A stretch of 64,000 nt of DNA, taken from positions 1 to 64,000 of the forward strand of contig JAEURP010000009.1 in NCBI GenBank assembly GCA_016788585.1, read 5' to 3'. The position numbers and the translations under genes were made by a program. Positions 63,249-64,000 of this stretch are shown here, in pieces. A model generated the notes under the pieces. The model was given only the letters and a program-made list of their open reading frames with translations. It had not been told where the DNA came from and searched no databases. The first letter of the stretch is position 1; every line of letters begins with the position of its first letter. The stretch comes from Chthonomonas sp. (GTDB lineage: Bacteria > Armatimonadota > Fimbriimonadia > Fimbriimonadales > Fimbriimonadaceae).

Positions 63249-63334
63249 GCTGGGTGTGGTTGGGTATTGCGGGGAATAGCTGGGTGTCGCTGATTAATCC
63301 CAGCTAAACCAAGCCATCCCCAGCAACCCCCAGC
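63249..63334. repeat. Word-repeat hairpin C (GCTGGG type), probable bidirectional terminator
   Basis: The left arm (63249-63284) opens and closes with GCTGGG and holds degenerate copies between. The right arm (63299-63334) is CCCAGC with the same pattern complemented. About 36 bases pair imperfectly around a 14-base loop. It fills the gap between the convergent purM and flgM stops. Confidence 0.65.
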
Positions 63335-63597
63335 TAACTAACGCGATCGACAATCGCACGCCGAATCATCGCATCTGCGATCTCTTCGCCTGATGGATGC
63401 CAAATGCCGGCTTGCATTTGAGCTCGGATTTCGGCGACGCGGTCTTCGCGGTCGGGCATGGCAATGACATCAGCAGTGATCTGCTTAATCATTGGGCCGT
63501 CGGTTGGGAGGGGGCTGGGAGCAGATTCGTCAACGATCTGGCGCTCGCGAGTAGTCGAGCTCATGACCTTTTCGAGTTCAGTTTTGCTAATTTGCAT
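63334..63597 (-). CDS. flgM: Anti-sigma-28 factor FlgM
   Basis: This 87-residue protein has the FlgM layout: a short helix near the start (ISKTELEKVM), a disordered middle and a conserved C-terminal half with DREDRVAEIRAQMQAG (49-64) and GEEIADAMIRRAI (70-82). FlgM binds sigma-28 (FliA) and blocks late flagellar genes until it is exported through the finished hook. The window also has motAB, but no fliA. It is preceded by a sigma-28-type promoter, a c-di-GMP riboswitch and a hairpin over its ribosome site. The stop lies at the edge of hairpin C. Confidence 0.8.
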   Translation of the reverse strand: MQISKTELEKVMSSTTRERQIVDESAPSPLPTDGPMIKQITADVIAMPDREDRVAEIRAQMQAGIWHPSGEEIADAMIRRAIVDRVS

Positions 63598-63600
63598 GGT

Positions 63601-63619
63601 GTCGCCTCTGATGTGCGAC
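63601..63619 (-). promoter_or_regulatory. Hairpin masking the flgM ribosome binding site
   Basis: On the minus strand GTCGC (63619-63615) and GCGAC (63605-63601) form a 5-base stem with a 9-base loop. The AGAGG that serves as ribosome site (63609-63605) is in the loop and stem, and the ATG follows by 3 bases. It lies between the riboswitch and the start codon, so it is a candidate expression platform. Confidence 0.5.
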
Positions 63620-63633
63620 GCCGCCTTCCATTA

Positions 63634-63695
63634 GGTAACCCGGCTGGCCCCTAGGGCTCCGTGGCTTTGCGTCCCACCGTCGCCGATGGTTTGCC
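63634..63695 (-). promoter_or_regulatory. c-di-GMP class I (GEMM) riboswitch
   Basis: On the minus strand the sequence matches the GEMM consensus. GGCAAACC opens it. A P2 hairpin CCATCG/CGGTGG follows, capped by a GCGA (GNRA) tetraloop. Then come GGACGCAAAGCCACGG, a short variable P3 stem and GCCGGGTTACC at the end. The base aligning with position 20 of the Vibrio Vc2 RNA is G, which favours c-di-GMP over cGAMP. It sits 36 bases before the flgM start. A 6-base palindromic hairpin (63703-63718) lies just upstream. Confidence 0.88.
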
Positions 63696-63724
63696 ATTAT
63701 CTTGGACGCTTGCGTCCACTTCTA

Positions 63725-63752
63725 ATAACGGCACATTCGCCGCGTTTCTTTA
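63725..63752 (-). promoter_or_regulatory. Sigma-28 (FliA/SigD) promoter candidate
   Basis: On the minus strand TAAAGAAA (63752-63745) and GCCGTTAT (63732-63725) are 12 bases apart. The consensus is TAAAGTTT, 11 or so bases, then GCCGATAA or GCCGATAT. The -10 matches 7 of 8 to the Bacillus form. Transcription would start near 63717, just before the riboswitch, and lead into flgM. Confidence 0.6.
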
Positions 63753-63862: not shown

Positions 63863-64000
63863 CTAGTTATTCAAATTTACCGGCCTCATCTGAGCGAAAT
63901 GCCCCCGAGTGAAATCGGGAATGTCAATGCTCTGACTTCGATTTGCGACCGACCACTCGCTGAGTGGCGAAATGCAAGACCAAGACGCAGCGTCGTAAAC
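63863..64000 (-). CDS. Gfo/Idh/MocA family oxidoreductase, C-terminal end (partial)
   Basis: A 45-codon open frame runs from the window edge to a TAG at 63865-63863. Its sequence includes [20 protein letters not shown] and [11 protein letters not shown], which match the C-terminus of Gfo/Idh/MocA dehydrogenases as I recall it (PLSE..SVA..S..VD.PDFTRG). The catalytic and NAD(P)-binding parts lie outside the window. Substrate unknown. Confidence 0.55.

Follow-up and report, generated by a model that had tools for sequence, protein, structure and literature searches.

A predicted c-di-GMP-I riboswitch in the leader of the anti-sigma-28 gene flgM, and its conservation in Armatimonadota

FlgM acts by blocking sigma-28, the sigma factor of the flagellar system. 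The known routes by which c-di-GMP stops swimming are transcription factors, motor brakes and riboswitches that control flagellar operons. In Clostridioides difficile the GEMM-I riboswitch Cd1 lies before the flgB operon and works by transcription termination (PMC5386303). The c-di-GMP-I riboswitch Vc2 of Vibrio cholerae is described as a gene-ON switch (PMC12564702), and in E. coli the small RNAs OmrA and OmrB repress translation of flgM (PMC7602753 and references there). In a literature search with most subscription journals outside its coverage, we found no paper joining flgM with a riboswitch of its own, none describing a riboswitch on any anti-sigma gene, and none on c-di-GMP riboswitches of Armatimonadota; the first-pass annotation of this DNA likewise knew of no described flgM riboswitch. 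Here we analyse a locus in which flgM itself is preceded by a c-di-GMP-I aptamer. The window, meaning the whole stretch of DNA analysed, is 64,000 nucleotides long, and the named relatives of its source genome belong to the Fimbriimonadaceae, Armatimonadota. Judged by the literature searched, the novelty lies in an anti-sigma factor being the target and in a logic shared across the phylum.

The flgM gene, its promoter and its leader

The elements of the locus are listed below in their order along the minus strand, which runs from the promoter through a 5′ hairpin, the aptamer and a Shine-Dalgarno (SD) hairpin to flgM.

63745–63752, minus strand: −35-like element TAAAGAAA of a sigma-28-type promoter (sequence and conservation)
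63725–63732, minus strand: −10-like element GCCGTTAT, separated from the −35 element by an N12 spacer (sequence and conservation)
63703–63718, minus strand: 5′ hairpin UGGACG-CAAG-CGUCCA, at the predicted mRNA 5′ end (folding, z −3.5)
63630–63704, minus strand: c-di-GMP-I (GEMM) aptamer (RF01051 and RF03167 covariance-model matches)
63627–63634, minus strand: 3′ strand of stem P1, CU-AA-UGGA, with partner UCCAAG at 63706–63701 (sequence and folding model)
63613–63621, minus strand: putative switching strand GCGUC-G-CAC (predicted from the folding model)
63601–63619, minus strand: SD-sequestering hairpin GUCGC/GCGAC, with AGAGG (63609–63605) in its loop and arm (sequence)
63334–63597, minus strand: flgM, an 87-aa anti-sigma-28 factor, apparently a single-gene unit (PF04316)

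The first-pass annotation had named the gene flgM, and the open reading frame does match the Pfam FlgM family PF04316 (37.6 bits, cut-off 25), the matched part being C-terminal residues 37–78. Its score against the NCBIfam FlgM equivalog TIGR03824 was 21.9 bits, below the cut-off of 40.75. The gene is therefore assigned to FlgM by Pfam family and context, with equivalog status unconfirmed. Downstream lies a purM-like gene on the plus strand, and the upstream neighbour on the same strand is an oxidoreductase-like gene ending at 63863. The same genome encodes flagellins, five GGDEF genes and sigma-28 itself (FliA; TIGR02479, 225.2 bits, cut-off 189.6, G000:C6:59797-60474).

The promoter-like sequence TAAAGAAA-N12-GCCGTTAT reported earlier is present at 63752–63745 and 63732–63725. 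Patterns of the type TAAAG-N(11-12)-GCCGATAA, of which the window site is a form with GCCGTTAT, were sought in 69 leaders. The strict pattern TAAAG...CCGATAA recurred just upstream of the aptamer in 29 of them, against 0.75 expected after shuffling, and near matches were present in most of the others. A matching site, TAAAGCTA-N11-GCCGATAA, also lies before one of this genome's flagellin genes. A genome-wide search for TAAAG-N(13-14)-CCGATAA gave zero matches, its spacing range not including the real sites. The earlier reading of this sequence as a predicted sigma-28 promoter for aptamer and flgM is thus supported by conservation and by the flagellin-gene site.

Also borne out was the GTCGC/GCGAC hairpin holding AGAGG, which is present at 63619–63601; the same SD hairpin, with an altered loop, occurs in two relatives of the same genus (G001 and G004). 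The small 5′ hairpin at 63718–63703 is an addition to the earlier description. Its 3′ arm has UCCA in common with P1, and it forms part of the switch in the folding model; short 5′ hairpins are frequent in the family, with z < −1 in 26 of 42 leaders. Aptamer and start codon are usually separated by 15–45 nt (very short examples are 13 nt in G038 and 15 nt in G016), and no terminator-like U-run was found between the two in the leaders inspected, which are so short as to leave too little room for a terminator. In a sister family (f2) the SD sequence GGAGGCAG is complementary to CUGYCUCC, that is, to the 3′ strand of P1 together with the next bases, CUCC, so that formation of P1 and sequestration of the SD should be mutually exclusive.

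Identity and distribution of the aptamer

A search with Rfam models confirmed the GEMM aptamer proposed between promoter and gene. It scored 64.9 bits against RF01051 (curated cut-off 35) and was the only c-di-GMP-I match above cut-off in the whole genome. By E-value the top-ranked label was the variant RF03167 (c-di-GMP-I-GGC; 62.0 bits, E 3.2e-12), a score barely above the cut-off (62 versus 59). The hallmark of this variant, taken from the model consensus GGGACGCGAA, is G instead of A47. The window reads GGGACGCAAA and keeps A47, as do all 68 aligned Armatimonadota aptamers, and membership of the variant was rejected, the top Rfam label being misleading. The GEMM-Ib, or cGAMP-sensing, variant was ruled out for the window by G20, since that variant needs A20.

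The residues that contact the ligand, numbered as in the Vc2 structure, are all canonical in the window: G20 at 63695, A47 at 63668 and C92 at 63635. Of the 68 aptamers in the same alignment, 67 have G20, 67 have C92 and all 68 have C44, which makes the P2–P3 contact. With G20, A47 and C92 as in classical c-di-GMP-I riboswitches, the window RNA should bind c-di-GMP, and the aptamer is, by its sequence, an ordinary member of the known class. In most Fimbriimonadaceae aptamers a shortened loop containing a bulged A takes the place of the P2 internal loop AAA/GAC, which accounts for the low Rfam scores in this family. P2 was structurally misaligned between families by MAFFT, and we therefore make no claim of covariation in P2.

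The first-pass annotation had suggested looking in close relatives, and there the aptamer precedes flgM in the same genus (G001–G004), family and order. Across 101 relatives (the first 101 genomes, aptamer E ≤ 0.001), 66 of 86 Pfam FlgM matches had a same-strand aptamer 120–205 nt ahead of the conserved FlgM domain. Five more linked aptamers, which score under the threshold or have an enlarged P3, were recognised by their core motif (G010, G027, G057, G058 and G064), and nine others, all in one genus, lie upstream of divergent FlgM-like proteins not detected by Pfam. At the level of the order there were 73 Pfam FlgM genes, of which at least 67 carried the aptamer, in addition to the nine FlgM-like genes; this count leaves out a false FlgM match inside a 609-aa frame (G064:C49). 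Outside the order, the same arrangement was found in 48 genomes from 11 families of the phylum. The E-values, together with conservation across the phylum, indicate that the arrangement is not due to chance and, judged from this distribution, it is old within Armatimonadota.

The aptamer was missing before flgM in one genus whose genomes are normal in size (G007, G036 and G053) and before a second flgM copy (G038:C55), and several families outside the order had FlgM without a linked aptamer among the matches listed. Two members of the family with AT-rich genomes of 1.5 Mb (G032 and G050; L101 and L103) have lost the aptamer while keeping flgM. As the metagenome-assembled genomes are incomplete, absences are weaker evidence than presences.

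Some further aptamers were seen in the course of this survey. The flgM aptamer of G057 (L089) has an apparently enlarged P3 with a repeat-like filling (gtgagaatcgtgagaatcgt...) and was hence missed by Rfam. Other c-di-GMP-I aptamers of Armatimonadota (L034, L028, L021, L118 and L119) lie upstream of long open reading frames resembling secreted subtilisin-type proteases, two of them (L118 and L119) in tandem in G099. In the same genome an 81-bit aptamer (L012, G099:C237) lies upstream of an open reading frame resembling an HD-GYP-type phosphodiesterase, a possible case of c-di-GMP feedback.

Direction of control and alternative readings

For 66 leaders we calculated how much it costs to open the SD-to-AUG stretch when the aptamer fold is imposed and when it is not, and leaders in which the rest of the linker had been shuffled served as controls. 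Imposing the fold changed the cost by a mean of −2.8 kcal/mol, against −0.6 kcal/mol for shuffled leaders, and 57 of the 66 leaders lay below their own shuffled mean; the sequences are related, so these statistics are inflated and the Wilcoxon p-value overstates independence. This drop beyond the shuffles means that the folding model predicts ON, a direction of control that the first-pass annotation had not given. The exceptions were G023 and G024, for which OFF was predicted, and a few leaders that showed no change. In terms of thermodynamic folding, which takes no account of co-transcriptional kinetics or ligand energy, translation of FlgM is probably turned ON by c-di-GMP, and sigma-28 would thereby be silenced.

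A first model of the window leader began inside the 5′ hairpin, and a full-leader model was used instead; the ‘off’ mode of the latter was left out because it also forced the P1 bases to be unpaired. With the aptamer folded, the cost of opening the SD fell from 3.8 to 1.4 kcal/mol in the full leader of the window, from 3.2 to 1.0 in G001 and from 6.0 to 2.3 in G004. Taken alone, the window effect was reached by 32% of shuffled leaders and so is not beyond the control, and a window model without the 5′ strand of the hairpin gave the opposite sign (OFF). The detailed route in the window is for these reasons tentative. In the folding model the switching strand has two alternative partners, the SD arm GCGAC in the blocked state and the 5′ strand GUGGACGC at 63719–63712 in the open state. 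P1 would take UCCA away from the 5′ hairpin, and the freed strand GUGGACGC would then capture GCGUC-G-CAC and break the SD hairpin.

From these data we consider it likely that flgM mRNA is made from a sigma-28 promoter with a leader that acts as a translational c-di-GMP-I riboswitch, ON at high c-di-GMP, and that FlgM then silences sigma-28. At low c-di-GMP, P1 would remain unformed and the ribosome-binding site buried, giving little FlgM. At high c-di-GMP, ligand binding would close P1 and free the SD site, and the FlgM produced would silence sigma-28 and shut the late flagellar genes. FlgM output would thus need both active sigma-28 and high c-di-GMP. The analysis supports the first-pass proposal that c-di-GMP tunes how much FlgM is made within a sigma-28 feedback loop.

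The same riboswitch might instead have the opposite sign, c-di-GMP reducing FlgM translation, either through hindrance of the ribosome by an aptamer folded only 13–45 nt before the start codon or through stabilisation of the SD hairpin. FlgM would then be reserved for cells with low c-di-GMP, trimming sigma-28 while they swim. The very short aptamer-to-start distances of G038 and G016 would suit such an arrangement, as would the OFF sign of the shortened window model and of the two exceptional leaders. We nevertheless think it unlikely, since most leaders, compared with shuffled versions of themselves, shift towards ON, the full leaders of the window, G001 and G004 all predict ON, and the SD of the sister family pairs with the 3′ strand of P1, which ligand binding must release. 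It would also run against the usual repression of motility by high c-di-GMP.

A leader acting mainly on transcription, by attenuation, or on mRNA stability, with the 5′ hairpin as a decay-protecting element and translation touched indirectly, would fit the frequency of short hairpins at the predicted 5′ end, and termination is the mechanism of the flagellar GEMM riboswitch Cd1 (PMC5386303). We regard this as improbable, because no terminator-like U-run fits in the leaders inspected and because P1 can reach the SD and the two are often complementary. A related dinucleotide in place of c-di-GMP, in this genus or generally, is hinted at by the variant label RF03167 and by the near relatives G001 (L026) and G004 (L025), the only sampled flgM aptamers with A20, a change that enables GEMM-I RNA to bind cGAMP (PMC6274999). 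Among the GGDEF domains found in these two genomes, the base-contact position is E, D or K, never S or T. We take S or T at this position, as against other residues, to be the sign of a cGAMP-type enzyme; none is thus evident among the domains found, and a switch of signal is unsupported. With the contact residues kept in the window and in nearly all relatives, another ligand seems very improbable. Returning to translational ON control by c-di-GMP, we lean towards an ancestral riboswitch that makes FlgM a direct readout of c-di-GMP in Armatimonadota, in which sigma-28 promoter and c-di-GMP-ON translational switch in series would form an AND gate shutting flagellar expression.

Comparison with known systems

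If this is true, the literature searched holds no earlier case of a riboswitch that acts on an anti-sigma factor. With no protein sensor involved, c-di-GMP would here act on the FlgM/sigma-28 checkpoint, the central node in the timing of flagellar expression, and the arrangement is retained in much of a phylum that has been little studied. For these bacteria, which have almost no genetics, it gives a direct prediction that could be tested cell-free or in a reporter strain.

The aptamer resembles c-di-GMP-I riboswitches of RF01051 in sequence, fold and ligand-contact residues; it differs in its target, the anti-sigma factor gene flgM, and many of its Fimbriimonadaceae counterparts differ in the altered P2 internal loop and low scores. 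Vc2 has in common with it the GEMM-I aptamer and the gene-ON direction predicted here, whereas Vc2 has another target gene and no known sigma-28 link. OmrA and OmrB also control the amount of FlgM post-transcriptionally, acting on the leader or the early part of the coding sequence. They are trans-acting and of opposite sign, in contrast to the predicted ligand-sensing cis element of the flgM leader. The closest precedent is Cd1 (PMC5386303), likewise a GEMM-I riboswitch on flagellar genes, in which high c-di-GMP leads to less motility, as predicted here. Cd1 is an OFF switch that terminates transcription from a sigma-A promoter, whereas the flgM leader is predicted to be ON, translational and transcribed from a sigma-28 promoter; Cd1 thus reaches a similar end by terminating an early operon that encodes sigma-D (sigD), where the flgM leader would act on the anti-sigma factor.
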